Of a stretch of DNA of 40,079 bases, positions 17,801 through 38,969 are shown in pieces. Both the position numbers and the translations under genes were made by a program. The number at the start of each line of letters is the position of its first letter. Position 1 is the first letter of the stretch. The notes below the pieces were generated by a model, which saw nothing but the letters and a program-made list of their open reading frames with translations, was not told the DNA's origin and did no database searches. This stretch comes from Polyangium aurulentum. Its GTDB lineage: Bacteria > Myxococcota_A > Polyangia > Polyangiales > Polyangiaceae. The stretch is taken from positions 1-40,079 of the forward strand of contig CAMCKZ010000022.1 of NCBI GenBank assembly GCA_945875545.1. Direction: 5' to 3'.

Positions 17801-18519
17801 CCTATTCGCACGGCCCTTCTCAGAAAGCTCGGCGCGGAATCACTGGCATTTCCCACGGAAATCTCACAGCCGTCGCTCTCCACGACGCGGCTTTCGGCCG
17901 CAGCACGGGTCGCCGATCGGAGCAGGTGAGGGAGTGGACCCAGCGCCAAAGCATGGACATCGACGGCCGGGGATCGGGGCGCGGGGCCCAGAACTTGGGC
18001 GTCTGAGAGGCAGCCCACGGCGGCGCGCGCGGCGGGGCCCGTGAGCTTCAGAATATCGCGACGAATGATTCGCAACTCCAAGGCCGCACGCCACCCCATG
18101 GTGCCCGGCTGGAGGGCGAGACTCTCAATGGTCTGGGCCTCGCTCGGCGAAAAAGTGGCACCGAGATGGACGCTTTCTGCCAAGCGATGGGAGGCAAACC
18201 ACGCGTAGAGCTCGCTCGATTCATCGTGCACCGAGCGCACAAGGGACAGCACCTGAAGCCAGCCTGCACGCTCTTCGCCGACACGCCCATCGAGGTTCGC
18301 AGACTCGGCACACAACAGCGCATCGGTCGGTGAAGAAAAGGATGCACAATGCACGCTTGAAGAACGAAACGTCGCCATCGCTTCCTGGGACGCCACCCCG
18401 GACTCAAAGAAGGTCTCCGCGTTCACCGTTGCCCGCGCGGAGTGTGGCGTATGCGAACGGGTGCACGAAGCAGCCGCGAGGGCGCTCAGAAAAAAGATGC
18501 AAAGTGCAGGTTGTTTCAT
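14875..18519 (-). CDS. DUF3857/transglutaminase-like lipoprotein, catalytic Cys missing
   Basis: A 1214-residue predicted lipoprotein (lipobox AAASC, Cys19) and paralogue of the adjacent upstream gene. The first half is helical and repeat-like (TPR-type, Ala/Glu/Arg-rich), followed by a DUF3857 domain (about residues 660-840) and a transglutaminase-core region (about 870-970). Aligned with its neighbour over 28 residues ending in RT, the active-site block GDCKDKA is replaced by GTGQRAA, with Thr908 where the neighbour has Cys916. The His/Asp region is also altered (HLEAWGGAML, WFTLSERFANFDW). It therefore cannot act as a thiol transglutaminase or peptidase. Its ATG at 18519 overlaps the upstream stop (ATGA), so the two are coupled. 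A long in-frame extension upstream lies inside that gene and is rejected. Confidence 0.82.
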   Translation of the reverse strand: MKQPALCIFFLSALAAASCTRSHTPHSARATVNAETFFESGVASQEAMATFRSSSVHCASFSSPTDALLCAESANLDGRVGEERAGWLQVLSLVRSVHDESSELYAWFASHRLAESVHLGATFSPSEAQTIESLALQPGTMGWRAALELRIIRRDILKLTGPAARAAVGCLSDAQVLGPAPRSPAVDVHALALGPLPHLLRSATRAAAESRVVESDGCEISVGNASDSAPSFLRRAVRIGAERTLIIAVSRATKLLVDDLLVLDRSPSIWGSWNRFGARVHLGPGVHRISAEVVGSPAAVFVLDEDGQPAPYADAGPSETPALSKPLRLPDPNPIEKLVGAAPRLPESFLLRFVAAEMARADGLPNLAAFWLDGTSPANGNGAAWLRAQGRAAAGDPIYTDEDRGRRALEFFARLTKTCPTCLDPRMARARTQREAGQVVEAWKSLGEMSDEAPERLDILLELAELAEHLAWDGERVRIGMKLRDRFASSPAALRARLQISEAVGSAGEAPGIASALVASGTAPRLARERSSRARDWQTLLPTGPAKTFEELEALRMAGLAPRFTIDAQTLIEKEPHPLLRLTLAHEKVARGEPRAASVALDAAAKKGEEADALGATVTALEGLGPIAAYRIDGSQVVADFERASKANFDTTGPASRILDYAVLWVNGRGVAQMLEHEMVRIQSREAIQQEAEQPFPPGRILRVAVRKADGRIIEPDVVQGKTTLTMPDLAIGDIVETEHVQELSAARPDGTVFQSPRWFFREPDKSYWRSEFVVITEANRALSVDERGDVPERKTEVLPHGRIATRWRVDGAPAVRDEPAAAPRSDWLPSVQVTYGLHEQEELGRTVERMSSRDAIDPRMRALANSIVVGVSAAEVTERLRRLHAYCVEHVLDGPESYGPRVLTSGTGQRAAAFMHLARILELPVETVLTRTKTGAAWPSEGGHLEAWGGAMLRAETESGLRWFTLSERFANFDWVPEVLRGQESVRLVKDLPREKIPEFPLRDAFFVDGNVDIDDDGTARASLELRFLDRPAMAFREVRARMDDTEWRRFLEQGLFVSSFPSWHTESLETEGASDRSRELVVRVRGSAPFWLDGRGSRRAPFTINLRPYVALESRQTPLVVETPTGARVTLRLRGANGAKPRPPLAPRSIETQSGTFRVSDRVDGDVLVVDRTTSFAAQRVSAEDYPAWASTLREGLSLVEREFGMALPPRH

Positions 18520-21500
18520 GGGCTCACCATCCATCGGAGACGTTCGGCGGAGGCGCGATCCACACGGCGGCAGAACTCGCGAAAAGCAGCGTATTCGCTG
18601 GGTTCTATGTGGCTTGCGGTGAAGGCCAAATACGTCGAGACCGTCACGTTTGAACCCGTGCGTACGAGCGTGCGGTCGAACTGGGCGAAGGCCGTTTTGA
18701 GGTGCACGTCGCCGGGCACTTCGTCGGTGACGGCACCGGCGGGGAGTTCGATCTGCCAACGGTTATGGTGGGCGACCGGGCGAGAAAACCAAAGGGTGCT
18801 CGTGCGGGTTTCAGGTGCTGCGAAACTGGCTTCCAAGAAGGGACTGGGCGCCACCGGCACCGCGAAGCTCTTGTCGGTTCGTCCAACGAAACGGCCGCTG
18901 ACGCCGTGAAATTCCAGGGCCGGCCCGCGCGTGCGGTCGTCGAGGCCTCCGCCCGTTACGGTGTCGATGCGGAGCCCCGTGAACGTTGCGGCAAGCTCGT
19001 CTTCGAGGCGCCCCTTGCGGGTTCCCTCGGCACCGAAGCGCACGCGCCAATCGTGGGCGCGGGCACCCTCCACGCGGCCACTCCAGTGCAGATCGAGACT
19101 GCCCTGGGCGTTGATCACGAGCTTGGCCTGGGACGTTTCAAAAGTTTCGTCGGGCGAGGTTTCAGGCAACGTGACGAGGCGGCCTCCGTCCGGCGTGATG
19201 CGCAGGCCCGTGGCCCCTCGGTCCATCCACGGAAGTTCGCGCATGCCAGTATTTTCAGCCGTTCCATCGAGAAAGAGATCCATCGCGGGCACGTACGCAA
19301 TCGCGTGATCGAAGATGGCGTGGGTCGGAATGCCCTCGTAACGGCGACCGTGGGTCGTGGTGCGAAGGAGCACAAGCTCCGCGTCGACGCCGAGCTCCCG
19401 AAGCAGCACGACGATGAGCGATGCCTTGTCTTTGCAGTCGCCCCAGCCCCGCTGGGCAACCTCCCACGTCGGGTAGGGCTCGTACCCGTGAACGCCAAAC
19501 TCGAGGGCGACGTAACGTGTATTCTGCACGACCCAGTCGTAGACGGCGCGCACCTTGTCGACGACATCGCGGGCGCCGGTGCCCAAGGTCTTCGCCCGTC
19601 GACGAAGCGCGTCGTCGGCCACCAGATCGTGGGCCACGAACCGCCGGTACCAGGTGCCAATGCTCTGCCAAGTAGGAAAACCACTGGCAATCACGCGAGG
19701 AATGAGTTCGTCGGCGGGCGGCCCGTTTTGCTCGAACGTGATGGGCGGGAGGTCGTCGCCGTGAATGCGCACCTCGTGGCGATCGCCCGTCGTCGATTCG
19801 GTTCGCGTGAGGGCGACGGGGCCGCCGGTCGTCACGTTGATGGCCCGCGACACAGGCCGGCGTAGAATCCAGTCGACGGAGAGCGTGGCGTCGCTGCCCT
19901 GCATCGCGAACACCTCGCCAAAGGCTTCACGCAGCCCTTCATCGCCGCCGAGGGAGTCGGTGCGCCACACCGTCTCGATGATGTCGCCTGCCTTTATCCG
20001 CGGAAAGTGCACGAGAACCACGCGCTGACTGCTGTACATCGCGACCGAGGGATCATCCGTATTCGCTTGAGAGATGTCGCTCGCGTCGTCGGTCGATCCA
20101 TCGGCATGAATCACGCGGGCGCGGCGCACTTGCACCACCTGGCGAGCGCTATCGTAGGCAAACGAATATTGTCGCGACTCAATGGCCGCATCATCGGTGA
20201 GCGGTTGCAGCGCGATTTGGTCAAAGCTGGCGGTAAGGCCGGTGGGGTAAAGCGTGGTGACGTGAACGCGGGCAAGGGTGCGGCGTGTTCCGACCGGCGG
20301 CTTCGCACTAAGGGAACGAAGCTCAGCGTCTGACTTGGCGAACGACTCATCGTCGTGGGCTTTGTCCGGCGTGAGCGCCTCCAGATGACGACGCAAGTTG
20401 CTGTCTTCCGGGGCGAGGTCCGAGGCGCGACGAAGGGCTGCGACGGCCTCCTCCGGGTGGCCCGCGCCAACCTCAAGGGCGCTAATAGCAGACCAAATGG
20501 TCGCATCATTCACACGCCGCTCGGCCCCCGCCACGAGGCGGTTTCGAGCGCGCTCCACGGCCCCGAGCCGCAACTCGGCGCGGGCTATTTCGATGGCCAT
20601 CGTGCTCGAGTGGCCCGTCAGCGCATCCAGATGACGGATGATGGCCCGCGCCACGGTGGTCTGTTCGGCTGCGAGGGCCCACGCGAGACGCTCCCGATGC
20701 CACGCGAGACGATCGCTTGCGCGCGCGAGGCCGAGGAGCACCATGCGGGCCGACTCTTCGCGGCGACCCGCGTTGCCAAGGTGAGTGGCGGCGGCTTCCA
20801 CGAGAATAGGAATGGGTCCGAGGCGTTGAACGGCCAGCGCCAACCGCTCGGCTGCGACCGCAAGCAAGCCCATTTGCGCCTCGACGTCGGCGGCGGCGAC
20901 GATGGCGCGCGCGTCGTCGGGGTAGAGCGCGAGGAGAGCTGTCGCGAGGGGCATCGCGTCGGCGCCCGCGAGTCCGAAGCGTTGCAAATCGATGCGCGCC
21001 AGGTCGACCTCGTAGGCCTCGGCCGCGTTCGTTACCAGCGATTCTGCACGCGTCACAAGCGCCTGCCGTTCCGCGCGGGTGGCTCCGAGGTTCAAGCGAA
21101 GCAGGGCATCAGCCGTTGTAGCGGGGCCTTTCAAAAGGCTGTCGAGGAGGTCGCGCAAGTAGAGACCGCGGGCATCGTCGCCGCCCGAGTGCGCGAGGTA
21201 GCGCCCGAACATCCGTGCATCATGCACGGAGCTGTGTTCGCGGTTTTGAAAGCGAAGAACGAGCCCCGTGTCTCCCGGCGGAACGTGCTTTCGCTTTAGC
21301 GGTGCCCCCGCGGCTCCGACCTCCGGTGAGGCTTCGAGTCGCGCGCCCGTGGTGCGTTCGCCGTTCGCATCGGCAACGCGAAGCATCAGTGCGGGAGCGT
21401 GGGCCCGGTGGCATGTCTTGACGACGAGGCGGCTCCCGGCCTTATCGACTTGAAACGGAAATGCGTGCCGCTCGGCGTCGAGGCCGCGCTCCACGGAATC

Positions 21501-22181
21501 GGAGCCGATGAGTGCGCCGTCGAGAAATACTTTCACCGCGCCGGCGGTGCCCAAACTGACGCGCCCATGAAATGCGGCGTCGCCCGTGCTCGCCATGCGC
21601 GCGACGGCGTACCAACACGCGCCTCCCTCCGATGCGTCGAGTTCGGTGTAGTCGAGGGTGCCAAAAGCGGTGGCACGGGCCACGTGGCGAAACGAGATCA
21701 TGCGCCCCTTGCTCGTCCACGTTCGGCCGAGAGCGATCGGGCGACCGTCTTCGAGTTCGGGCACCAGGGCCGTATCAAACCCTGTATTTTCCCTGTTTTC
21801 AAACGGGCCGAGCACCATCCAGTCGTCGGCGTAGCCGAGGGCTTTCACCGCTCGGCTTGCGCCCCCCGGGTCTCCGAGGCGGCGGCGCGCAAGGACGTTG
21901 AGCCACGAAAAATATGCCCGCGCATAGGCGTCGTGGGACGGATCGGTGGATGCATAATGCAAGCTTCGTTCGACCGCGTCTTTGGCGTCGAGGTTCCACG
22001 TTCCCCAGAGTTCCTGCGCGGCCACGATGGAGGCGTCTCCCCGCGAGGCATCAAAGGCCCTCAGCGCGGCGCGGAGCGCGTCGGGCTCGACACTGTTGGC
22101 GTGGGTGGCGTGGGCGCGCTCGGCGGAGGCGGCGACCGTGAGGGCAAGAACAAAAGCTGAAACGGGACGAAGGGCATTCAT
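18516..22181 (-). CDS. DUF3857 and transglutaminase-core protein, active triad intact
   Basis: A 1221-residue exported protein. It has a signal peptide (MNALRPVSAFVLALTVAASA), a beta-rich region with LGPFENRENTGFD (about 120-280), a long helical TPR-like part (about 340-620), a DUF3857 domain (about 650-840), a transglutaminase core and a C-terminal beta domain. The papain-like triad is complete: Cys916 in GWGDCKDKASL, His959 in IFDHAIAYV and Asp972 in LFLDGTAE. Such proteins act in the periplasm as cysteine peptidases or cross-linkers; the substrate is unknown. It starts the minus-strand run: it overlaps the Cys-less paralogue by 4 bases, and the GH35-like gene follows. The pair may function as an active/inactive couple (inference). 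It is divergent from the UbiA-like gene across 110 bp. Confidence 0.85.
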   Translation of the reverse strand: MNALRPVSAFVLALTVAASAERAHATHANSVEPDALRAALRAFDASRGDASIVAAQELWGTWNLDAKDAVERSLHYASTDPSHDAYARAYFSWLNVLARRRLGDPGGASRAVKALGYADDWMVLGPFENRENTGFDTALVPELEDGRPIALGRTWTSKGRMISFRHVARATAFGTLDYTELDASEGGACWYAVARMASTGDAAFHGRVSLGTAGAVKVFLDGALIGSDSVERGLDAERHAFPFQVDKAGSRLVVKTCHRAHAPALMLRVADANGERTTGARLEASPEVGAAGAPLKRKHVPPGDTGLVLRFQNREHSSVHDARMFGRYLAHSGGDDARGLYLRDLLDSLLKGPATTADALLRLNLGATRAERQALVTRAESLVTNAAEAYEVDLARIDLQRFGLAGADAMPLATALLALYPDDARAIVAAADVEAQMGLLAVAAERLALAVQRLGPIPILVEAAATHLGNAGRREESARMVLLGLARASDRLAWHRERLAWALAAEQTTVARAIIRHLDALTGHSSTMAIEIARAELRLGAVERARNRLVAGAERRVNDATIWSAISALEVGAGHPEEAVAALRRASDLAPEDSNLRRHLEALTPDKAHDDESFAKSDAELRSLSAKPPVGTRRTLARVHVTTLYPTGLTASFDQIALQPLTDDAAIESRQYSFAYDSARQVVQVRRARVIHADGSTDDASDISQANTDDPSVAMYSSQRVVLVHFPRIKAGDIIETVWRTDSLGGDEGLREAFGEVFAMQGSDATLSVDWILRRPVSRAINVTTGGPVALTRTESTTGDRHEVRIHGDDLPPITFEQNGPPADELIPRVIASGFPTWQSIGTWYRRFVAHDLVADDALRRRAKTLGTGARDVVDKVRAVYDWVVQNTRYVALEFGVHGYEPYPTWEVAQRGWGDCKDKASLIVVLLRELGVDAELVLLRTTTHGRRYEGIPTHAIFDHAIAYVPAMDLFLDGTAENTGMRELPWMDRGATGLRITPDGGRLVTLPETSPDETFETSQAKLVINAQGSLDLHWSGRVEGARAHDWRVRFGAEGTRKGRLEDELAATFTGLRIDTVTGGGLDDRTRGPALEFHGVSGRFVGRTDKSFAVPVAPSPFLEASFAAPETRTSTLWFSRPVAHHNRWQIELPAGAVTDEVPGDVHLKTAFAQFDRTLVRTGSNVTVSTYLAFTASHIEPSEYAAFREFCRRVDRASAERLRWMVSP

Positions 22182-26197: not shown

Positions 26198-29100
26198 CTA
26201 ATATACGGTACTTGCTACGGCATACGCGTGCCACGCTCCGCCTTCGTTCCATCCGCGGGCAACTCCCAGGCGAAAAAGCAGATCGATGAAGTAGCCGCCG
26301 GTCGTATCGGCCCAGAGCTCGGCGCCGGAGCCCGAACGGAGTGACGCCGACGAAAATGCTGAAAAAGCGCTGCCCGTATCGTTGAAAATAGCTCCGGTCA
26401 GGCGCCGAATAAAGATCGGGTACGCGCCAATTCCGCGATCGATGTTCACGATCGGAAATCGGTATTCGGCGTTCAGCAGCGCGAAGTGACGACCGGAAAC
26501 CGCGAAGGGGTCATAGCCCCGGAGCGCCACGCCGCCCTGCACGATGAGGTTTTGCAGCGTCGTGACGAGGGGCGTCGCCGTGAAGCCGCCGAGGCTGTAC
26601 GCGCCGGGGCCCGGGTACGCTCCGTCGCTCGTGCCGGCCCCAAGGTGGAGGGCAAGGGTGTGGTGGCGCAAGGGTGCCGCGAGGTCGCCGAAGGGCACGT
26701 ACGCGGCGGCCTGGCCGCTCAGCGAGGCTCCCATGACGCTGGACCCCACCACGTCACTCGCGAGGCTTCCATTGAGCGCCATCGACGTGCCGCGCTCGGC
26801 CCCGATGGAGTGCAAAAAGTGCTGCGTCCGGTCGTACGCCCACGACGCGCGAAGTGTGGCCAATTGCCCGCGAAATGGAGTCAAGGGCCGGTTAAAGGGA
26901 TCGAACGACGTGCCGCGCGCGGCCTCTCCGGCCACGCGCACAAACCCCGCCGCGAGGCGAAACGAATGGGACGAAAATGTGCTGGGCAAAGCGAGGCCCG
27001 CGCTGGTCTCGAGGCCCACGGATTCCTGAACCCACGGGAGCACATACAGGGCGCGATTTGCCCCGCCGCCGCGGGCGGTCAACGAACGGTAAGCGCGGAG
27101 GCTTAGGTCCGCGCGCAACCGACCATAGCTGTAGACTGCATCAAATTGAGGTTCGGGTCGCTCGGTCTCAAAGCGCGCAGACAGGGTGAAACTGTGATTG
27201 CTTGAAGCGTCCGAACCCGTGGTGCTCCCGACGATGGCCGTGCCGAACATTCCGGTCCCGTATTGAAGGGCATAGGACCGTGGGCGCAACGAGGACACCG
27301 GAACATAGTCACTGTATGTTGTTTGTACTTCCGGCGGCTCGGCGTGAGTTGCATCGCGTACGCGGCCGATATCCGTGCCGACGGGCTCAAAATTCTTGGG
27401 GTCGATGGGCATGACGCGGAGATCCCATCCGTTCGCGCCATACGACGAAAATGCCAGAAAATCTCCTCGCGGAGAGATTGCGGGCTGCACCGCCGCGAAC
27501 GCCGTTCGGGTGACGCGAAAGCGCCGCCGGGTCGCGAGTTCGATGGCGTGAATCTCGAACCGGCCGTCGAGAAGATCGCTGTGAAAGTAGAGCCAGTCGC
27601 TTTGCGGCGAGAAGCACACGCCGCCGTCGAGGGCCGTGTCGTGGGTCACAAGTTCGCTCGTGCCCCGAACGCGATCGTAGAGAACGAGGTCGCGCGCCGC
27701 CGCTCCCCGAGCCTCGCCGAGAGCCTCGCGCGAAGGCGTGCTGAGCCAAGCGCCGTAGGCAATGAATCGCCCGTCGCCAGAGAAACGCGGACCATAAAAT
27801 TGGTCGAAATGTTCTCCGCCCACAAGGATGCGCGGGTCCTCCAAAGCGTCGCGTCCGAGCCCGGCTTCGACGAGCGCCGACTGCCCACGATGGCGCGTGA
27901 CGTACACAATGCGCGAGCCGTCGGGACTGACGTCGAGGCCATCGGAACGGGCGCCCGTCGTGAGGCGCGTTTGGGCCTCGGTGTCGCCCCATAGGTCGCG
28001 TGTGTGTGACGAAATACGCGAAATATCACCGAACAAATAGAGCTGGTTGCTCACCTGCGGCGCATCGAAAAATAGGTCACCCCCGGGCGACATGGCGGCG
28101 TGGGAGTCGCCGGCCGTGCGCATGATTAGGCTGGAATTTCCCACGGATTGGCCGTTTGCCATCGGAAGCCCGACGAGGCCCGGCGTGCTGTGACCGTCGG
28201 AGCGAAAGTAGACAATGCGCTCGGGCTCGTTGCCGACCGATGGAAACCATCTCGGGTGGGTCGCAACAAATCCGTGCGACGTGAGCGCCTGCCCATCGCG
28301 CGGACCTGCGGCCTCGTGCGCGGCTTGGAGCGCCCGAACGCGCGCGTCTTCCTCGTCGAGAAAGTGGTGCCACAGTTCCGAAAGCGGAAGCCCCGTGGCG
28401 CGGCGGAACGAGCGCTCGAGGCCATAGGGAATGGGCTCACTGCCGTGGCTCGCGAGCAGCGTCATGATGGCCTGCTGCCCGAACGAGCGGTGCAGCCACT
28501 GGTAGAAAAAGGAGCCGTAAAGGTACCAAAGTGTTCCCTGGGGCCACACGCGCGGGGTGCCGCTCACGCGATCCAAGGTGGCGGGGGTTTCGCTCAGACG
28601 ATCGGCGCGAAAATAGGCGTCCCAGAGGCTCGATCGCAAACGCCCGCGCGAGGTGTGCTGGGTCTCTTCGAGAACGGCGAGACCCTCCAGCGTCCACCTC
28701 GGTGCCCACTGATTTGGAACGAGGGTGCGGCCCACCACGCGATTCCAAAGCGCGGGAAAACCCTCGATGCGCGTCATGTGGAGGATGTGCGTGTACTCGT
28801 GGGTAAAGAGCGCGCGGTACCAATCATCGACGTCGCCGAGGGGCGAGAGTTCGTCGGGTGCGACGGCGTTGAGGCGAATCAGATCGTAGGGGAAGGCTGT
28901 CGCCGAACCATTCGCGGAGTCGGTGCCATCGGTGATGACGACGTCGGTTTGGTGCGGCGGCGGGCCGGCAAAAGCGGGCACGAGTTCGCCGTGAATCTGC
29001 TCCGCGAGGCGCACGATGCGCTCGGCGAGAGCCTCCTCGCCCGAGTAATAATGCACGCGAAAGTGAAGGCTCTCAAGGGTTCGCCACTCAAGACGAGGGT

Positions 29101-29227
29101 CGCCCGAGGCCGACGCACGCGTCACACCGAGCGCGAGAGCGAACGGCAGCAGGAAAAAAATACGTGTGCAAAATACACGAAGTCCGCGAAAGACGAAGGC
29201 ACTTTCGCGGACCTTTGGTGGCGTCAC
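26198..29227 (-). CDS. Fusion: gluzincin peptidase, TolB-like propeller and outer-membrane beta-barrel
   Basis: A 1009-residue exported protein with a signal peptide (FFLLPFALALGVTRASA). Residues about 45-330 form a zinc-peptidase domain: H143-E144-Y-T-H147 (LFTHEYTHILHM) with third ligand E181 in RWTLEGLAVLEE, the gluzincin layout of the peptidase-MA family. Residues about 330-640 contain WD40/PD40 propeller blades (DVSPDGSRIVYVTRH, RFSGDGRFIAYGAW, AISPRGDFLAFSSYG). The last 350 residues look like a BamA/Omp85-type barrel: alternating aromatic strands, VALRGYDPFAVSGRHFALLNAEYRFPI, GAIFNDTGSAF and a C-terminal aromatic residue. All parts appear intact. It follows the PilZ gene by 6 bp, probably one operon. 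The barrel should anchor the peptidase at the outer membrane; substrate unknown. Confidence 0.85.
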   Translation of the reverse strand: MTPPKVRESAFVFRGLRVFCTRIFFLLPFALALGVTRASASGDPRLEWRTLESLHFRVHYYSGEEALAERIVRLAEQIHGELVPAFAGPPPHQTDVVITDGTDSANGSATAFPYDLIRLNAVAPDELSPLGDVDDWYRALFTHEYTHILHMTRIEGFPALWNRVVGRTLVPNQWAPRWTLEGLAVLEETQHTSRGRLRSSLWDAYFRADRLSETPATLDRVSGTPRVWPQGTLWYLYGSFFYQWLHRSFGQQAIMTLLASHGSEPIPYGLERSFRRATGLPLSELWHHFLDEEDARVRALQAAHEAAGPRDGQALTSHGFVATHPRWFPSVGNEPERIVYFRSDGHSTPGLVGLPMANGQSVGNSSLIMRTAGDSHAAMSPGGDLFFDAPQVSNQLYLFGDISRISSHTRDLWGDTEAQTRLTTGARSDGLDVSPDGSRIVYVTRHRGQSALVEAGLGRDALEDPRILVGGEHFDQFYGPRFSGDGRFIAYGAWLSTPSREALGEARGAAARDLVLYDRVRGTSELVTHDTALDGGVCFSPQSDWLYFHSDLLDGRFEIHAIELATRRRFRVTRTAFAAVQPAISPRGDFLAFSSYGANGWDLRVMPIDPKNFEPVGTDIGRVRDATHAEPPEVQTTYSDYVPVSSLRPRSYALQYGTGMFGTAIVGSTTGSDASSNHSFTLSARFETERPEPQFDAVYSYGRLRADLSLRAYRSLTARGGGANRALYVLPWVQESVGLETSAGLALPSTFSSHSFRLAAGFVRVAGEAARGTSFDPFNRPLTPFRGQLATLRASWAYDRTQHFLHSIGAERGTSMALNGSLASDVVGSSVMGASLSGQAAAYVPFGDLAAPLRHHTLALHLGAGTSDGAYPGPGAYSLGGFTATPLVTTLQNLIVQGGVALRGYDPFAVSGRHFALLNAEYRFPIVNIDRGIGAYPIFIRRLTGAIFNDTGSAFSAFSSASLRSGSGAELWADTTGGYFIDLLFRLGVARGWNEGGAWHAYAVASTVY

Positions 29228-29233
29228 GGGGGA

Positions 29234-30157
29234 CTAAAAATCGTCGTGAAAAAGGGGCTCACGATTTTTCACGTAGCGGCGAATGAGGTCGCGGCCTTCG
29301 ATGTTCGCGTGGGTGATTCGCGCACCGAAACCGGGGTGTGCATCAGGGTTTCCAGCGACCGGGTCGCGCATCCACGTCACGATGCCGCCGAGCACAAACT
29401 CGTACCCCCCAGGCATGGCGACCTTGAGGCGAACCGCCGCGCCGGACTTTGGAATCTTGTAAGTCGCGACGAAAAGGCCACCGTGCTGGATGATGTCGTT
29501 TCCCGCGAGACCCTTGTAAAAGTTCGACGCCGATTGGGTGCCGAGCGCAACTTCGACCACCGGTGCATCGGCGGGAATGGCCTCGGGCCCGGGGATGCCA
29601 AGACCGGCTGGAGCGGGCGCAGGCGCGGGCGCAGGCGCGGGCGCAGGCGCAGCAGGGGCCACCGGCGCGGGAGCTGCCGCGCGGGCGGGAACGGGCGGTA
29701 CCGGGGCAGGCGCAGGCGGGGGAGCAGGAGCAGGCGCGCGCACCGCAACAACCGGCGGCGGGGCAGGAGCGGGCAATGGTGCGACGAAGCCGTCCGACGC
29801 CATAACCGTGGCATCAAGGGCGCCGGCGAAGCCCGTTTGAATGGCCCGTTGCGCTTGCACCAAGGGCCCTAGACCGCCCGCGACGGCCTCGATGGCGGGC
29901 AGCAATGCCGGGTACGTGCCGACGGCCGCCTGGAGCGCGCCGAGGGCGCTGCGGACCGACCCAAGGGTCTCGTCGAGTTGGGCAAGGGCCGGCGTGCCCC
30001 CAGCCTTTTCCATCTGGTGGCAGGCGCTCATCGCTTTCGCTACAATTCCAGCAATATCAAGGATTTGCTGGGGCAGCGATGCATTCGATTGAATGGCCCC
30101 GAGGGCTCGGGCGAGGGATTCGCGGGCTTGGCGAACAAGGGCGAGGGAATCAGACAC
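29234..30157 (-). CDS. PilZ-like domain protein with helical N-terminus and Ala/Pro linker
   Basis: A 307-residue protein in three parts: a helical Ala/Gln-rich N-terminus (about 1-120), a low-complexity Ala/Pro linker (about 125-190), and a C-terminal PilZ-like domain (about 195-300). The last shows GGLFVATYKIPKSGAAVRLK, PGGYEFVLGGIVTWMRD and HPGFGARITHANIEGRDLI, resembling the TIGR02266-type PilZ domains common in myxobacteria. The RxxxR motif needed for cyclic-di-GMP binding is absent, so nucleotide binding is doubtful and a protein-binding role is possible. It sits 6 bp upstream of the metallopeptidase/barrel gene, suggesting a shared role in surface or envelope function. Confidence 0.75.
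   Translation of the reverse strand: MSDSLALVRQARESLARALGAIQSNASLPQQILDIAGIVAKAMSACHQMEKAGGTPALAQLDETLGSVRSALGALQAAVGTYPALLPAIEAVAGGLGPLVQAQRAIQTGFAGALDATVMASDGFVAPLPAPAPPPVVAVRAPAPAPPPAPAPVPPVPARAAAPAPVAPAAPAPAPAPAPAPAPAGLGIPGPEAIPADAPVVEVALGTQSASNFYKGLAGNDIIQHGGLFVATYKIPKSGAAVRLKVAMPGGYEFVLGGIVTWMRDPVAGNPDAHPGFGARITHANIEGRDLIRRYVKNREPLFHDDF
29613..29648. repeat. Three perfect 12-bp copies coding the Ala/Pro linker
   Basis: The unit GCGGGCGCAGGC occurs three times head to tail, then decays. On the minus strand it encodes alternating Ala and Pro in the PilZ-like protein's linker. The period keeps frame, so copy number could vary the linker length without breaking the gene. Confidence 0.9.
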
Positions 30158-32335: not shown

Positions 32336-33306
32336 CGCTTGGCACCGAGCGAGTAAGGCTTCGCGGGTGGCACCCAGCGCATGCGCCTAAGGCGCTGAAC
32401 GAGGTCGTCGAGGCTCACGGCCGCCGGTGACTCGGTGAGTTTCAACGCGAAGGCCACGAGCGACACAACCTCGCGCGGCGCCACGCCAAGACCGCGAAAG
32501 TGGCGCACCGTCAGGGTGTCGCCGTTGCGTTTGGCAAGGCGCTGCCCATTGGCGCCGAGCGCCAGGGGCAGGTGCAAATACCTGGGCGTGGGCAGGCCAA
32601 GGAGGCGCTGCACGTGAACTTGGCGCGGGGTTGACGCCAGCAAGTCGTCGCCGCGCACCACCAAGTTGATGTTCATCGTGGCGTCGTCGATGGCGGTGGC
32701 AAATTGGTACGAATAAACGCCGTCGGCGCGGCGCAGAACGAAGTCGCCGAACTGCTTGACGATGTCTTGGGTGACCCCGCCGCGAAGCACATCACGCACC
32801 TCCACGGGCGCGACCCCCGTGAGATCGAGGCGCAACGACGACAGGCGCTTGGCGTCGCGGATCTCGTGGCGACGCCTGCAAGTACCTGGGTAGACCGTCT
32901 CTTCGCCCGGGTGCGGGGCCACGGCGGCGCGGGCGATTTCGGCGCGCGAACAATCGCACGGATAGATGCGACCAACTCGTCGCAATTCGTCGAGGCAGCG
33001 GGCGTAAAGCTCCGCGCGCTTGCTCTGAAAGGGCGAACCGAGCTCCACGGATTCCACCGGCCCGGGGCCCTCTTCCCAATCGAGACCGAGCCACCGAAGG
33101 TCTTCGAGGATGCGATCGACGCAGCCGGGCACCGCGCGGGTCACGTCCAAGTCGTCGATCCGGACGACGAACTTTCCGCCGGTCATGCGGGCAAAAAGCC
33201 ACGATATGAGCGCGACGCTCACGCCGCCCAGGTGCAAGTCACCGGAAGGCGTGGGTGCGAAACGTGTTCGCAACGGTTGCTCAAAGAGCTCGACGGGAAG
33301 CGACAT
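32332..33306 (-). CDS. gluQ: Glutamyl-Q tRNA(Asp) synthetase
   Basis: A truncated paralogue of GluRS lacking the anticodon domain; it attaches Glu to the queuosine base of tRNA-Asp. The 324-residue length fits GluQRS (about 290-320), not GluRS (about 480). Motifs: HIGH-type RFAPTPSGDLHLGG, zinc-binding YPCDCSRAEI with a later YPGTCRR (CxC...Y...C), IDDLDVTR, and KMSKS-equivalent RLAKRNGD. It is the last gene of the arginine operon; its ATG shares one base with the argF stop (TAATG), so translation is likely coupled. No functional link to arginine synthesis is obvious. The stop overlaps the convergent CLC gene by 4 bases. Confidence 0.94.
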   Translation of the reverse strand: MSLPVELFEQPLRTRFAPTPSGDLHLGGVSVALISWLFARMTGGKFVVRIDDLDVTRAVPGCVDRILEDLRWLGLDWEEGPGPVESVELGSPFQSKRAELYARCLDELRRVGRIYPCDCSRAEIARAAVAPHPGEETVYPGTCRRRHEIRDAKRLSSLRLDLTGVAPVEVRDVLRGGVTQDIVKQFGDFVLRRADGVYSYQFATAIDDATMNINLVVRGDDLLASTPRQVHVQRLLGLPTPRYLHLPLALGANGQRLAKRNGDTLTVRHFRGLGVAPREVVSLVAFALKLTESPAAVSLDDLVQRLRRMRWVPPAKPYSLGAKR

Positions 33307-34223
33307 TAGGCCAGGAGGAAAGTGAGGAGCGCCTTCTGGCTGTGCAGGCGATTTTCAGCCTGGTCGAAGATACGCGACTTCGGCCCTTCCATGACCGCAC
33401 TCTCTATCTCTTCGCCTCGATGGGCCGGCAAACAATGCAGCACGACCGCGTCGCTTTCGGCGTGTTCCAGCAGCTCTCCCGTGACGGTGTAGCCTGCAAA
33501 CGCCTGGAGCCGCCGCGCTGTCTCGTCTTCTTGACCCATGCTCGTCCACACGTCGGTGTTCACAATGCGCGAGCCCGTCATGGCCTCCCGCGGATTGCGT
33601 GTAAGCTGCACGTGGTTCCCGGCTTCAATCACTTCATGGGCCGGGGGATCGAAGCCCTCGGGTGTGGCCAGCGCCAGCGTAAAACCAAGGATTCGTGCCG
33701 CCTCGATCCACGAGCGGGCCATGTTGCTGGAGCCGTCGCCGATGAACGCGCATCGAAGCTTGCTCCAGTCCAAGAGCTCGCCGCGGGCCCGAAACACCTC
33801 TTCGACGGTCATCAGATCCGCGAGCAGTTGCACCGGATGCGCGTCGTCGGTGAGGGCATTGATGACGGGCACCTTCGCGATGCACATCTCCTCGAAACGC
33901 GCGGTCGTGGTGGTGCGAAAAACGATGGCCTGGCAGTAACCCGCCAAGACCCGCGCCGTGTCGCGCACGGGCTCGCCGCGCCCCATCTGGGAGCCCTGGG
34001 TGGTGACCACGACGGGAATGCCTCCCAGCTCCGCGACGCCAACCTCGAAACTAATGCGCGTCCGAGTGGACGCTTTTTCCATCACGATCGCGACGGCCTT
34101 GCCGTGAAGCGCCGCTCGGCCTCGGGCGCGGTCGGCCTTGAGGGCGTGAGCCTCGGCCAAAATGCTTTTGAGTTCGTCGACGGTCAGGCTCGAAAGCCTC
34201 GCAAAATCGCGCTTCGCAGTCAT
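33306..34223 (-). CDS. argF: Ornithine carbamoyltransferase
   Basis: Makes citrulline from ornithine and carbamoyl phosphate in the cytoplasm. The 305-residue length is typical. Carbamoyl-phosphate site S52-T53-R54-T55-R56 (EKASTRTRISFE), H129-P130-V-Q132 (DDAHPVQLLADL), and the ornithine-side H263-C264-L265-P266 (VLHCLPAHRGEEI) are all present, as is the DGxxNMARSW segment. Its ATG overlaps the argH stop as ATGA and its stop overlaps the gluQ start, placing it in the minus-strand arg operon. I found no AT-rich ARG box near it, but the operon promoter is further upstream. Confidence 0.97.
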   Translation of the reverse strand: MTAKRDFARLSSLTVDELKSILAEAHALKADRARGRAALHGKAVAIVMEKASTRTRISFEVGVAELGGIPVVVTTQGSQMGRGEPVRDTARVLAGYCQAIVFRTTTTARFEEMCIAKVPVINALTDDAHPVQLLADLMTVEEVFRARGELLDWSKLRCAFIGDGSSNMARSWIEAARILGFTLALATPEGFDPPAHEVIEAGNHVQLTRNPREAMTGSRIVNTDVWTSMGQEDETARRLQAFAGYTVTGELLEHAESDAVVLHCLPAHRGEEIESAVMEGPKSRIFDQAENRLHSQKALLTFLLA

Positions 34224-35680
34224 CGCATCTCCAGGGGAACGTGGGCCAAATGAGCAAGTAGGGCATCGAGGCGAGGAACCAGCTGCGCCCGATCGTGAAG
34301 CCTTCCGGCGAGGAGTTGAAGCTCGTCGAGAGACCGGAGCACCGCCTTCGGCCCCGTGCCGCCGTAACTCTCCTTTGCCAAAATAGCCCGGCGAGGGTCA
34401 AGAACGTTCATGCAGTCTGCATCAAGTTCCGGGTGCACGTCGCGAACGTCGTCGAGGCTGAGGGCCGACAGGTGCACGCCTTGAGATGTGGCGCGGCGCA
34501 CAAGTTCGCCGGAGGCTTTGTAAGCTTCGCGAAAGGGCACTCCCTTGCGCACGAGAGCCTCGGCCAAGTCCGTCGATTGGGTGAATCCGTCGGCCAGCGC
34601 GGCCTCTCCGCGGTCCCCGCGGAAGTGCACATGATCGAGGCACAGATCGACCGCCCGCATGCACGCGGCAAGGGTGGGCCCCGTGGAAAGCACCGGCACG
34701 CGGTCCTCCTGTTGGTCGCGGTTGTAGCCCGAGGGCAAGCCCTTCACGAGCGTCAACAGGTGCACGACATTCGCAATTCCCGTCGCGGTCTTGCCGCGAA
34801 GCAGTTCGAAAATATCGGGATTCTTTTTTTGAGGCATCATCGACGACCCGGTGGATACCGCCGGATCAAGGGTCACGAGGGCGTATTCTGCCGAGGCGTA
34901 ATCCACGAGATCCGACGAGAGCTTGCCGAGCGCGAGAAGAACGCGTGCCCCGGCCCACGCCCAGTCCAACGCGAAATCGCGGTCGCCCGTCGTGTCGAGG
35001 GCGTTGCGCGTGGGGCCGTCAAACGCGAGGATCGACGCCACCAAGTGGCGGTCTGTGGGCAACGACGTGCCGCTGCACGCGCCACTTCCGAGGGGGCAAA
35101 GGCGCGTGCGATCCAGCACGAACGCGAGGGTCTCGCCGGCGCGAAGGAGTGCGCTTGCCCAGCTCGCCACCAGGAATGCCGCACTGATGGGCTGCGCCCG
35201 TTGCCGATGGGTGAAGGCAGGAATCGGGAGGGCCACGAGGGGCCGCGCCATGGCGATCAAACGCCGAGCCAAGTCCGCCAGTTCTTCGAGCCGCCGCGCC
35301 GCCTGATCACGCACGTGAAGCGTCAGATCGAGCGCGACTTGGTCGTTGCGACTGCGTGCAGTATGCAAGCGACCCGCGACGGCCCCGAGCCGCCGCCCGA
35401 GTTCCGCCTCGACGGCCATGTGGATGTCCTCTTCGCCCACCGGAAGCGCCAAACGAGACGCCTCCGCATCGTGAAATAGTGCGACCAACTGGTCGCGAAG
35501 TTCTTGCGCATCGGCCACGGGGATGAGACCGGTACGCGCAAGCATGGTCACGTGGGCGGCGCTTCCGAGCAGATCTTCGCGCGCGAAGGAGAGATCGTGG
35601 CCGTACGAGGACGACCACTGAACGAGTTCCGGGAGCATGCCGTCGAGGCCCGTGGCACCGGTTCTTGCGATGGTAGACAT
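34220..35680 (-). CDS. argH: Argininosuccinate lyase
   Basis: Cleaves argininosuccinate to arginine and fumarate, the last biosynthetic step. The 486-residue protein has the fumarase-superfamily signature with catalytic Ser279/Ser280 (TGSSMMPQKKNPD), plus TARSRNDQVALDL, HRQRAQPISAAF and GDRDFALDWAWAGA. The N-terminus (MSTIARTGATGLDGMLPELV) is shorter than usual lyases that begin with W-GGRF, but the core is complete. argG is not in the window. It is preceded by a 119-bp gap holding a GC-rich hairpin, and its stop overlaps argF by 4 bases. Confidence 0.96.
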   Translation of the reverse strand: MSTIARTGATGLDGMLPELVQWSSSYGHDLSFAREDLLGSAAHVTMLARTGLIPVADAQELRDQLVALFHDAEASRLALPVGEEDIHMAVEAELGRRLGAVAGRLHTARSRNDQVALDLTLHVRDQAARRLEELADLARRLIAMARPLVALPIPAFTHRQRAQPISAAFLVASWASALLRAGETLAFVLDRTRLCPLGSGACSGTSLPTDRHLVASILAFDGPTRNALDTTGDRDFALDWAWAGARVLLALGKLSSDLVDYASAEYALVTLDPAVSTGSSMMPQKKNPDIFELLRGKTATGIANVVHLLTLVKGLPSGYNRDQQEDRVPVLSTGPTLAACMRAVDLCLDHVHFRGDRGEAALADGFTQSTDLAEALVRKGVPFREAYKASGELVRRATSQGVHLSALSLDDVRDVHPELDADCMNVLDPRRAILAKESYGGTGPKAVLRSLDELQLLAGRLHDRAQLVPRLDALLAHLAHVPLEMR

Positions 35681-35790: not shown

Positions 35791-35810
35791 CGGCGGCGTC
35801 TATGCCGCCG
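35791..35810 (-). promoter_or_regulatory. GC-rich 7-bp hairpin at the argJ-fusion stop
   Basis: CGGCGGC (35791-35797) pairs with GCCGCCG (35804-35810) around a 6-base loop that overlaps the stop codon of the ArgJ fusion. There is no T-run, so it is not an intrinsic terminator. It could stabilise the 3' end of the upstream message or tune argH expression. Confidence 0.4.
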
Positions 35811-37920
35811 AAAAGGGCGGTAATGTTGGGAAACCGCGAGGCTGAATGAGGGTACCCACGCCGCGATCCGTGAAGAGTTCGGCGATGAGCGTGTGGGGCA
35901 GGCGGCCGTCGATGATGTGCACCGCATGCACGCCGTGGCGAAGAGCGGCGAGGGCTGCGTGGACCACCCGCAAGAGCGCGGGGTGGATGCCTCCGGAGCG
36001 GAGGCGATCGGCCAGGGTGTCGTCGTGCAACGAAACGATGAGCTCGCCGTCGAAGGTAAGGCCCGGCGCGTCGACGAGGATGATGAGCTTGTCGGCGCGA
36101 ACGGCGGCGGCCACATGGGCCCCGAGCTCCGCGGGGTCGACAAGATGTTGCGACCCGTCGTCTGCAACACCGACGGGCGATACGACGGGCACGTAGCCCT
36201 TGCCGAGAAGCACCTCCAGCGCGCCTGCGCGAACCGCGTGAACCGTGTTCCCATCGGCACGCTCTTCGGCCGTGACGAAAGCGCGCACCACGCCGCCCTC
36301 CCGCCCGCAGATACCGATGGCGTGTGCGTGGTGCTGATTGAGTGCGGCGACAAACGCTGGGCCCGTTTGCGCCTCAAGAAGCGTGTCCACGGCATCGCGC
36401 GGACCGCCTGCGGCCTGTTCCCCGTGGGCATCCTGGGCGTCCAACGCGCGCTCTGCGCCCGGACTCTCAAAAATCGCATGCACAGCCGGGGGATAGCCGT
36501 GAACCACGAGAGGCAATACGCCTGCACTCTGCAGCAAACTGACATCGCTTGCGAGGGTGGCCGCCAGGGCAGGGCGGGAGAGCGCGGAGCCTACCCAGGC
36601 AATCACGACGCGGCGATTGGCGAACTTCGCAATGTAGGAAAGGGCCTCCACGAGAATCGCGCGCTTCAGCGCCGGGCTGTAATTGCCGATGCGGTCGTCG
36701 CGGGTGATGGTGCCGTCGCTCGAAGCCTGCGTGAAAGAGGCGTAGTCCCCGTTGATCTTCACGTAGTCGTAACTGAGGTCGCAGCCCCACGCGCGGCCCG
36801 AGCCGGCGTCGCCGCCGAGCGCGATTTCAACGAGCACCAGAGGGTCGCGCATGCGCTTGCGCAGACTCGGCGAATCGAAGGCCACGGCGACCCCGTACGC
36901 AAACACCTGAATGCCTGCAATCTGCACGCAAATGGCCTGAAGCTCGACGGGGAGATTGTCGCGACCAATGCGCGCGCCGAGGGCGGCGACGACGCGCCCC
37001 CAGTTTGGGTCCGAGCCAAATAGCGCGGCTTTTACCAGGTTGTCGCCTGCCACAGCCCGCGCGAGATTTCGTGCGATGTCGTCGCTGGCAGCCCCGCGCA
37101 CGGTGACGTCGAGGCGCCGCGTGGCACCCTCTCCGTCTTCGGCGAGCTCGCCGCAAAGCTCTTGGGCCATGCCCTCAAGGATCGACTCCAACTGAAGTTC
37201 TTCGGGGCTCCCGCTGGCGATGGCGGCGTGCCCAGCGAGCCCACTGGCGAGAAGAAGTATCGCGTCGTTGGTGCTTTGAGAGCCGTCGAGATCGAGCTGC
37301 TCGAAGGTTCTTGCGCACACGCGCCCGAGGACCGCATCGAGCACAGCGGGGGGGACGTGCGCGTCGGTCGTGAAGACGACCAAGACGGTGGCCAAAGATG
37401 GTGCGACCATTCCGCTACCTTTTGCGATAGCTGCAAACTGCACGGATCGCCCGCCGATGGTTGCCTCGCGCAGGGCGAGCTTTACCCGCGTGTCGGTGGT
37501 CAGAATGGCCTCCGCGGCCGCTGCGAGATGGGGGCTCCGTGATTCGACCAATTCGCGCGATGCGGCGAGCAATTTATCGACGGGCCAACGCACCCCGATG
37601 ACGCCCGTCGCGGCACAAACGACGGCCTCGTGAGGCACGCGAAGCTCGTCGGCCACGCGTGCGCACACGGCGCGGCAGTCTTCAATGCCCTCGGCCCCGG
37701 TCAACGCGTTTGCGTTCCCGCTCGTGATCACCAAGGCGCGAAAGGCCGACGATGGAAACCGCGCGCGCGCATCGAGCACAGGGGCGGCGGCAGCGGCGTT
37801 TCGTGTAAATCGCGCGGCAGCCGAGCAGGGCACTTCTGCCGCGATGAGGGCGAAGTCTTTCCGTGACGCCTTGATGCCCGCGTGAATGCCCGAGAAGAGG
37901 AAGCCCCGGGGCGCCTTCAT
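35800..37920 (-). CDS. argJ: ArgJ fused to a degenerate ArgB (acetylglutamate kinase-like) domain
   Basis: A 706-residue fusion. Residues 1-415 are ArgJ (ornithine/glutamate acetyltransferase): KGSGMVAPSLAT with self-cleavage and catalytic Thr178 (Ala-Thr bond), FEQLDLDGSQSTNDA, GSDPNWGRV, and the C-terminal SYDYVKINGDYAS. Residues about 425-706 are an amino-acid-kinase domain that looks like ArgB but lacks its catalytic residues: VVIKxGG is VVIAWVGS (Ala441), HGGG is HGYP (474-477), NxNAD is LVDPA (593-597), and the GGMxxK lysine is missing (GGIHPALLR). It keeps the N-terminal helix (ALKRAILVEALSYIAKF) and VHIIDGRLPHTLIAELFTDR followed by GVGTLI. I infer an inactive, possibly arginine-sensing domain. 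Start ATG 37920 overlaps the argC stop. The ArgJ call is firm. Confidence 0.92.
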   Translation of the reverse strand: MKAPRGFLFSGIHAGIKASRKDFALIAAEVPCSAAARFTRNAAAAAPVLDARARFPSSAFRALVITSGNANALTGAEGIEDCRAVCARVADELRVPHEAVVCAATGVIGVRWPVDKLLAASRELVESRSPHLAAAAEAILTTDTRVKLALREATIGGRSVQFAAIAKGSGMVAPSLATVLVVFTTDAHVPPAVLDAVLGRVCARTFEQLDLDGSQSTNDAILLLASGLAGHAAIASGSPEELQLESILEGMAQELCGELAEDGEGATRRLDVTVRGAASDDIARNLARAVAGDNLVKAALFGSDPNWGRVVAALGARIGRDNLPVELQAICVQIAGIQVFAYGVAVAFDSPSLRKRMRDPLVLVEIALGGDAGSGRAWGCDLSYDYVKINGDYASFTQASSDGTITRDDRIGNYSPALKRAILVEALSYIAKFANRRVVIAWVGSALSRPALAATLASDVSLLQSAGVLPLVVHGYPPAVHAIFESPGAERALDAQDAHGEQAAGGPRDAVDTLLEAQTGPAFVAALNQHHAHAIGICGREGGVVRAFVTAEERADGNTVHAVRAGALEVLLGKGYVPVVSPVGVADDGSQHLVDPAELGAHVAAAVRADKLIILVDAPGLTFDGELIVSLHDDTLADRLRSGGIHPALLRVVHAALAALRHGVHAVHIIDGRLPHTLIAELFTDRGVGTLIQPRGFPTLPPFSAA

Positions 37921-38969
37921 GGGGCAAAGCGCATCAGTGTATCGAGACCCGCAGTCTCAGCAAATCCGCAGGCAAGGTTCATGTTTTGCACGGCTTGGCC
38001 CGCGGCACCTTTGACGAGGTTGTCGATGGCACCGATCGTGACGACTGCCTCGGCATTCGCCTCGACGCCCACGTAGGCAAGATTGGTGCCCGCGACGGCC
38101 TTGATCGTGACGTGAGCCGCGTCGACGACGCGCACGAAGGGCTTGTTCTTGTACGCCTCGCGAAGAACAGCGACCAGTTCGTCGCGTTTTACGCCGGCCT
38201 TGGGACGCAAGTAGGACGTCGTCAACAGGCCGCGCCGCAACGGCAAAAGGTGAGGCACGAAGGTGACCGCCGAGCGCCCCGCGTGGCGCGCGAGGCCGAG
38301 GGCAATCTCGGGGCTGTGTTGGTGCGTGAGGACCTTGTACGCGCGCAAATCGCCCGCCACCTCACAGAAGGCGAAGTCGTCTTTGGCCTGGCGGCCCGCA
38401 CCACTTGTGCCGCTCTTGGCATCAACGATCACGTGACCCGGCTCCACGAGCCCCGAAGCGAGCAGGGGCGCTGTGCTCAAGAGTGCCGCGGTGGCGTAGC
38501 ACCCGGGATTTGCGATGATGCGGGAGCTCGGAGGTGGCGCGCCAAACAGCTCCGGCAGACCGTAGTGCGCGGCCGTGAGAAGGTCTGGGCGCGGGTGATG
38601 GAAACCGTAATACGCGACGTAGTCGTCTTGTGTTTCAAGACGAAACGCGCCGGAGAGATCCACGATGCGGGCCGTCGATGACTGCAAAATGCGCGGCGCA
38701 AGATCCACGGACACGGCGGCGCTTGTGGCGAGGAACACCAGGTCAACGTCTGCGCTGCGCGCAAGGGCGGCGGCGTTTTCGATGAAGGTGAGACCCAAAA
38801 GGCCCCGCGCGAGGGGCTGGAGGGCGTCTGCCACCGCTTCGCCTCGACGCTTATCGGAGGTGCAGAAAGCCACGTCAACGCCGGGATGCGAGGCAAGAAC
38901 CGCCGTCAGGACGCTCCCCGAATACCCGGACGCGCCGACCACACCCACGCGAAGTTTGGGAGAAGCCAC
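37917..38969 (-). CDS. argC: N-acetyl-gamma-glutamyl-phosphate reductase
   Basis: Reduces N-acetylglutamyl phosphate to the semialdehyde with NADPH. The 350-residue protein has the Rossmann start VGVVGASGYSGSVL, active-site Cys157 in ANPGCYATAAL, KSGTSGAGRQAK and the C-terminal GAIDNLVKGAAGQAVQNMN. The start is a GTG at 38969. It overlaps the ArgJ fusion by 4 bases (ATGA) and follows the small membrane ORF by 12 bp. Its substrate is made by acetylglutamate kinase; since the fused kinase-like domain looks inactive, a functional argB should exist elsewhere in the genome. Confidence 0.97.
   Translation of the reverse strand: MASPKLRVGVVGASGYSGSVLTAVLASHPGVDVAFCTSDKRRGEAVADALQPLARGLLGLTFIENAAALARSADVDLVFLATSAAVSVDLAPRILQSSTARIVDLSGAFRLETQDDYVAYYGFHHPRPDLLTAAHYGLPELFGAPPPSSRIIANPGCYATAALLSTAPLLASGLVEPGHVIVDAKSGTSGAGRQAKDDFAFCEVAGDLRAYKVLTHQHSPEIALGLARHAGRSAVTFVPHLLPLRRGLLTTSYLRPKAGVKRDELVAVLREAYKNKPFVRVVDAAHVTIKAVAGTNLAYVGVEANAEAVVTIGAIDNLVKGAAGQAVQNMNLACGFAETAGLDTLMRFAP

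Follow-up and report, generated by a model that had tools for sequence, protein, structure and literature searches.

The Omp85/TpsB superfamily is defined by a membrane-embedded barrel domain (PMC4104836). WD40-Omp85 is one of the ten subfamilies set out by Heinz and Lithgow (2014, PMC4104836) and is given there with no known function; its members are described as having an Omp85 barrel, no POTRA domain and a TolB-like propeller N-terminal to the barrel, and the same authors proposed for them a role like that of BamA with BamB. The main text of that paper describes the propeller only, and the word 'peptidase' occurs in it 0 times. A 'Metallo' subfamily in the same paper corresponds to PF00149, and a paper of 2024 still describes three subfamilies (metalloprotease, WD40-like and patatin-like) as poorly characterised. 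PF00149 is named Metallophos in Pfam. Metallophos is a phosphoesterase family and not a peptidase family. In this study we analysed a window, i.e. the whole stretch of 40,079 nucleotides at positions 1 to 40,079 of contig CAMCKZ010000022.1 of Polyangium aurulentum (GCA_945875545.1, an assembly of 3.5 Mb in 188 contigs), and found in it a gene whose product has the propeller and the barrel of WD40-Omp85 and adds a gluzincin-type domain strongly implied to be a zinc peptidase. Each of the domains is known and the pairing of propeller and barrel is published; the gluzincin domain in this architecture appears undescribed, as no description of a gluzincin-propeller-Omp85 protein was found in the open-licence literature.

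The gene lies at 26198..29227 on the minus strand, as a frame of 1009 codons with a GTG start at 29227. A single chain of 1009 residues was what the original prediction, made from the letters of the window, had proposed for this interval; the frame is confirmed, and we add the strand, which that prediction lacked. Residues 1-40 (29108..29227, minus strand) form a predicted Sec signal peptide on the basis of sequence and hydropathy, with a basic n-region, the hydrophobic FFLLPFALALGV, and ASA preceding residue 41. The cleavage site was placed by eye and not with a signal-peptide program, and no lipoprotein box was seen in these 40 residues by the same approach. We predicted the structure of the whole chain using AlphaFold2 with 19 aligned sequences (pLDDT 82.5, pTM 0.84). 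The model has an alpha/beta-then-helical domain at residues ~45-310, a propeller at ~311-612 and 16 long strands at 648-1007. All three domains are confident in this model, with their arrangement relative to each other judged by the pTM alone. We are nearly certain of the resulting anatomy, i.e. a signal peptide followed by a gluzincin domain, a TolB-like propeller and an Omp85-type barrel, and the three-domain, self-anchored architecture of the original prediction is well supported by the model and by the structure matches. A soluble C-terminus, named in that prediction as a way in which it could be wrong, is not what we obtained, as a barrel is present in residues 648-1009.

The gluzincin-type domain covers residues 45-310 (28298..29095, minus strand) and was also folded alone, with a pLDDT of 89.4. 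Its model is similar to lugdulysin, an M30 zinc metallopeptidase (Z 16.6, 234 aligned residues, rmsd 6.1), and to the M1 enzymes IRAP (Z 15.6, 231 aligned, rmsd 3.9) and E. coli PepN (Z 15.1, 238 aligned, rmsd 4.0). The Z scores of the M30 and M1 matches are 14-17 overall and 14-16 for the M1 aminopeptidases, with sequence identities of 8-15% among the matches listed. Foldseek also returned M1 enzymes (best E 3.3e-6). The matches to lugdulysin and PepN place the domain in the gluzincin catalytic-domain fold, thermolysin-like or M1-like. No Pfam peptidase model matches the 1009-residue protein by hmmscan, and a profile search of the PDB with this domain gave a weak match to the aminopeptidase 3cia (E 0.0013). 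Among the 19 members of an alignment of relatives, hereafter A1, Peptidase_MA_2 matches seven (best 7.3e-5, E up to 1).

The domain has a putative zinc site. HEYTH at residues 143-147 (28787..28801, minus strand) would provide two zinc-ligand histidines and the catalytic glutamate, and Glu181 (28685..28687), in a W..EG.A motif on the next helix, would be the third zinc ligand, i.e. the gluzincin glutamate. In the model the HExxH helix spans residues 133-151 and the Glu181 helix 177-190, which is the gluzincin arrangement of HExxH with a glutamate on the following helix. We collected 36 genes from as many genomes, i.e. the window's own and 35 others, through whole-genome searches without a HEYTH seed; two of the 36 are incomplete genes without the LRGY part of the barrel. 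His143, Glu144, His147 and Glu181 are fixed in 36/36, while positions 145-146 are YT, FT, HT, YA, HA, YV or LV. The site is thus not a chance match, since the four catalytic-site residues are invariant in genes found without motif seeding, and it is probably a real zinc site, since the ligands are fixed and the spacers free, as catalysis predicts. Both HEYTH and Glu181 had been noted in the original prediction and stand at the residues given there. The 19 rows of A1 share HEYTH as well, but the seed peptides of that scan included EYTHILHM, and this invariance is therefore discounted. We also sought catalytically dead relatives in 10 chosen genomes and found none among the 19 distinct further genes with a peptidase region, all of which keep HExxH and the glutamate, diverged paralogues included (these genes account for 21 rows, since two of them appear as a pair of rows; a further 9 of the 30 rows were excluded, being TolB-like or other sequences without the region). 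Judged by the invariant HExxH...E, a zinc peptidase is strongly implied. Tyr235 and Tyr237 of a YLYG motif (28517..28525, minus strand), both invariant in the 36 genes, are candidates for the catalytic tyrosine by analogy with the M1 and M30 enzymes.

Enzymes of the M1 exopeptidase type carry a GAMEN motif before HExxH and have their glutamate 18 residues after it. Glu181 lies 34 residues past His147, with 33 between, and with this spacer and no GAMEN the protein does not belong in the M1 aminopeptidase family. The M30 lugdulysin and the M1 aminopeptidases have the same gluzincin fold with HExxH and a downstream glutamate, but none of them has a barrel, and the spacer to the glutamate is longer in our protein.

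The Omp85-type barrel occupies residues 648-1009 (26201..27286, minus strand) with its 16 long strands. It matches BamA of D. radiodurans (8xnb; Z 23.9, 318 aligned, rmsd 4.0), and the first Foldseek match of the whole-chain model is TamA of P. aeruginosa (8us2, E 4.8e-10). By sequence the Omp85 assignment is borderline, as PF01103 scores 21.8 bits against a cut-off of 24 by hmmscan and 24.3 bits, over the cut-off, in a six-frame search, and matches 5/19 members of A1 (best 5.9e-7, E up to 1); it is secure because of the structure matches. In Omp85 proteins the L6 loop between strands 11 and 12 carries an RG(F/Y) motif. The corresponding motif here is LRGY at residues 902-905 (26513..26524, minus strand), which in the model sits between the strands 857-869 and 914-932, barrel strands 11 and 12, i.e. 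in the predicted L6 loop, and is invariant in all 34 of the 36 genes that reach this region. Both features of the Omp85/TpsB superfamily, the 16-strand C-terminal barrel and an RG(F/Y)-type motif in L6, are therefore present, and the BamA-like barrel of the original prediction holds. The same genome also encodes a BamA with POTRA domains (L065), next to a frame resembling gyrA, and another long Omp85 protein (L066) that has an N-terminal extension; the POTRA domains and the gene names were assigned by eye. Diverged relatives or extra paralogues in some genomes of the phylum (L080, L082, L084, L087, L091 and L093) keep HExxH...E and lack the RG of L6 in a rough alignment. This counts against an active role of the barrel in those copies.

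Between these two domains lies the TolB-like beta-propeller, at residues 311-612 (27392..28297, minus strand). In the whole-chain model it superimposes on TolB with Z 26.5 (242 aligned, rmsd 2.3). PD40 scores 28.0 bits in the protein, over the Pfam cut-off of 20.9, and matches 15/19 members of A1 (E up to 1), while TIGR02800, the TolB model, matches 17/19. The protein itself scores 35.3 bits against TIGR02800, whose cut-off is 343 bits, and is not a TolB equivalog. TolB, with which it has the propeller fold in common, is a soluble periplasmic protein with an N-terminal domain of its own. The PD40-type blades of the original prediction are thus borne out. A search of a viral fold library was not informative, the matches listed being mainly propeller or repeat proteins. 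The linker at residues 613-647 (27287..27391, minus strand) is partly a low-confidence stretch in the model. No POTRA domain was matched by Pfam in the protein up to E 10; the propeller and the 35-residue linker occupy its place, and because of this lack we do not file the protein as BamA or TamA. With the propeller directly N-terminal to the barrel and without POTRA, the closest described kind is the WD40-Omp85 subfamily, compared here by its published description.

PlpD combines a patatin lipase with POTRA and a barrel. BepA belongs to another peptidase family (M48) and is a periplasmic protein on its own, with a TPR domain. PlpD resembles our protein in having the enzyme domain N-terminal to an Omp85 barrel (PMC11116518), and differs in that ours has a zinc peptidase and a propeller and no POTRA. 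BepA is reported to be a zinc peptidase that acts on LptD at the beta-barrel assembly machinery (BAM; PMC8423444). The role we propose below is of this sort, i.e. that of a zinc peptidase working on outer-membrane proteins next to an Omp85 barrel.

The peptidase is the best-conserved domain in the 36 genes. The mean pairwise identities are 52%, 44%, 31% and 38% for peptidase, propeller, linker and barrel, with 27/266, 9/302, 1/35 and 25/362 invariant columns, respectively. Both peptidase and barrel are under constraint as judged from these alignments, and since the barrel is constrained too, its role probably goes beyond anchoring. The architecture is widespread in the phylum, which answers the survey suggested with the original prediction. 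Among near relatives 56 of 59 genomes have a match, and in 50 of the 59 one alignment runs through all the domains. In a sample of 187 genomes from the phylum (the window's own included), 141 have a relative, with single alignments spanning the three domains in at least 69. A fusion or assembly artefact is ruled out by these single alignments, and a misread frame or a soluble C-terminus by the AlphaFold2 model and its match to BamA, together with the relatives. A profile of the peptidase domain matches 102 of 114 genomes at E up to 1e-3 and 86 at about E 1e-60 or better; the weaker matches beyond the 86 are probably other gluzincins. Named relatives, from the scan that gave A1, come from metagenome-assembled genomes (MAGs) of delta-proteobacteria, Myxococcota, gammaproteobacteria, Margulisbacteria and Bacillota, the last two resting on MAG binning. 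A plasmid search gave no match. As this protein shows, some propeller-Omp85 proteins at least have a conserved and probably active zinc peptidase, with relatives in about three quarters of the sampled genomes of the phylum. One Omp85 subfamily has stood in the literature since 2014 as a propeller joined to a barrel, its role in protein assembly no more than a guess; here it gains an enzymatic function that can be tested by mutating a known catalytic position, and the protein would be a real Omp85-linked metallopeptidase, in contrast to the published 'Metallo' class based on the Metallophos domain.

A PilZ-like gene of the TIGR02266 type (307 residues, 29234..30157, minus strand) lies 6 bp upstream, its frame ending at 29234 against the gene start at 29227, as had been noted before. 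Its product scores below the cut-offs of both models, with 45.1 bits for TIGR02266 (cut-off 68.7) and 16.3 bits for PilZ (cut-off 22.5). In family f1, sampled as a subset with one locus per genome, a PilZ-like gene is found upstream on the same strand in 22/27 loci; 19 are within about 100 bp, the other three have gaps of 284-967 bp, and one of the five misses has only 800 bp of upstream sequence. The linkage was seen in one of the two f8 loci, the other having no upstream sequence, and in 0/4 loci of f2, f3, f5 and f6, 0/3 of f23 and 0/10 other named loci (one with only 393 bp upstream). It is conserved within f1 and not general, being absent, f8 apart, from the 17 loci of other families and named records that we examined. 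The PilZ-like domain is much alike across the members and ends in a conserved NREPLFHDDL-like tail; the protein also has a Pro/Ala-rich linker that is long and differs in length between members. The usual PilZ motif is RxxxR. By eye no RxxxR was seen before the GG motif of the PilZ-like protein, and binding of c-di-GMP by this partner is therefore doubtful. In several genomes a gene follows that we presumed, from its sequence, to be a thymidine-kinase-like gene. On the plus strand a 574-residue open frame (28148-29872) runs antisense to the peptidase-barrel gene and its PilZ-like neighbour, and is taken as a high-GC artefact.

What might this protein do? We suggest, with about even confidence, that it is an outer-membrane-anchored periplasmic zinc peptidase acting on envelope or outer-membrane proteins. 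It would be exported by the Sec system and lose its signal peptide, and the C-terminal barrel would then enter the outer membrane so that its N-terminal side faces the periplasm, the orientation of other Omp85 proteins. The TolB-like propeller would sit directly under the barrel, at the position of POTRA, and hold the gluzincin domain in the periplasm beside the mouth of the barrel. Zinc would be bound by His143, His147 and Glu181, with Glu144 as the general base. The peptidase would most likely cut envelope or outer-membrane proteins, and the propeller may present partners or substrates, so that the function would be BepA-like, i.e. that of a zinc peptidase at BamA, but with a barrel of its own. 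We place the enzyme on the periplasmic side because of the way Omp85 proteins are oriented and of what was reported for PlpD (PMC11116518), and its role on envelope proteins follows the analogy with BepA (PMC8423444). Our computations show the domains and their folds, the unvarying zinc site, the wide occurrence of the protein and its linkage to PilZ; the activity, the periplasmic side and the substrate class are what we infer. The self-anchored outer-membrane peptidase of the original prediction accordingly stands in its anchored architecture, its peptidase part is strongly implied by the invariant residues, and the propeller may feed or gate substrate, as was suggested there. The published POTRA-less propeller-Omp85 subfamily, the wide occurrence and the conservation of the PilZ linkage were beyond what that prediction could see. 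Several observations weigh against the proposed role. The GAMEN motif of M1 exopeptidases is missing from the protein sequence; no substrate clue was found for the peptidase; no BAM, Lpt or other envelope-assembly genes were recognised among the recurrent neighbours, not every one of which was annotated; and no export signal was seen by eye in the PilZ-like product, the clearest conserved partner.

The conserved barrel raises the possibility of a single-chain Omp85 machine for assembly or translocation, in which the barrel inserts or exports clients, the propeller is a BamB/TolB-like dock and the peptidase trims or clears the clients. This would agree with the invariant LRGY in L6 and the 25 invariant barrel columns, with BamA and TamA as the closest barrel structures and with the BamA-BamB-like role proposed for WD40-Omp85 (PMC4104836). 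However, the protein lacks a POTRA domain that could receive clients, the genome keeps its POTRA-bearing BamA (POTRA by eye) and a second long Omp85 protein, and some diverged paralogues keep HExxH without RGY in the rough alignment, so the peptidase can be conserved without RGY. We regard such a machine as unlikely. A still more ambitious scheme, which we put forward as a speculation that is probably wrong, is a single-chain outer-membrane machine found throughout the phylum. It would unite a barrel of the Omp85 insertase type, a docking propeller like TolB or BamB and a zinc peptidase like BepA in one POTRA-less Omp85 protein that handles clients at its gate and proteolyses them, possibly controlled by the PilZ-like protein. 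Alternatively, the barrel could be an anchor only and the peptidase an enzyme for general scavenging or processing in the periplasm, unlinked to outer-membrane assembly. That the peptidase is the best-conserved domain and that several paralogues have lost the L6 motif speak for this, but the same 25 invariant barrel columns among the 36 genes, L6 included, speak against it, and we think it improbable.

The proposed periplasmic location has its own competitor, namely a surface or secreted peptidase, e.g. for predation or matrix processing, with the barrel carrying or threading the N-terminal domains outside as was once proposed for PlpD. Heinz and Lithgow raised the possibility for Omp85-linked enzymes (PMC4104836), and the PilZ-like linkage could point to a setting at the cell surface or in a biofilm. 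But the enzyme domain of PlpD is reported to stay periplasmic (PMC11116518), a folded propeller and peptidase of ~560 residues would need to pass through a 16-strand barrel, and the presence of relatives in 141 of the 187 genomes fits a housekeeping function better than a niche weapon. We consider this location distinctly unlikely. Least probable by far is that the HExxH...E domain has lost its activity and serves as a binding module, as all zinc and catalytic residues are kept in 36/36 and 19/19 genes, down to paralogues at about 130 bits.

Elsewhere in the window, two overlapping frames lie on the minus strand. The frame of 1221 residues at 18516-22181 has TPR-like, DUF3857, transglutaminase-core and DUF3858 matches, and the one of 1294 residues at 14875-18759 matches nothing in Pfam up to an E of 0.001. 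An arginine cluster comprises argF (33306-34223), argH (34220-35680) and an argC-like semialdehyde-dehydrogenase gene (37917-38969). Within it, a frame of 706 residues at 35800-37920 (minus strand) joins ArgJ (residues 9-395) to an amino-acid-kinase domain (residues 437-671) that is most like the acetylglutamate kinase ArgB.

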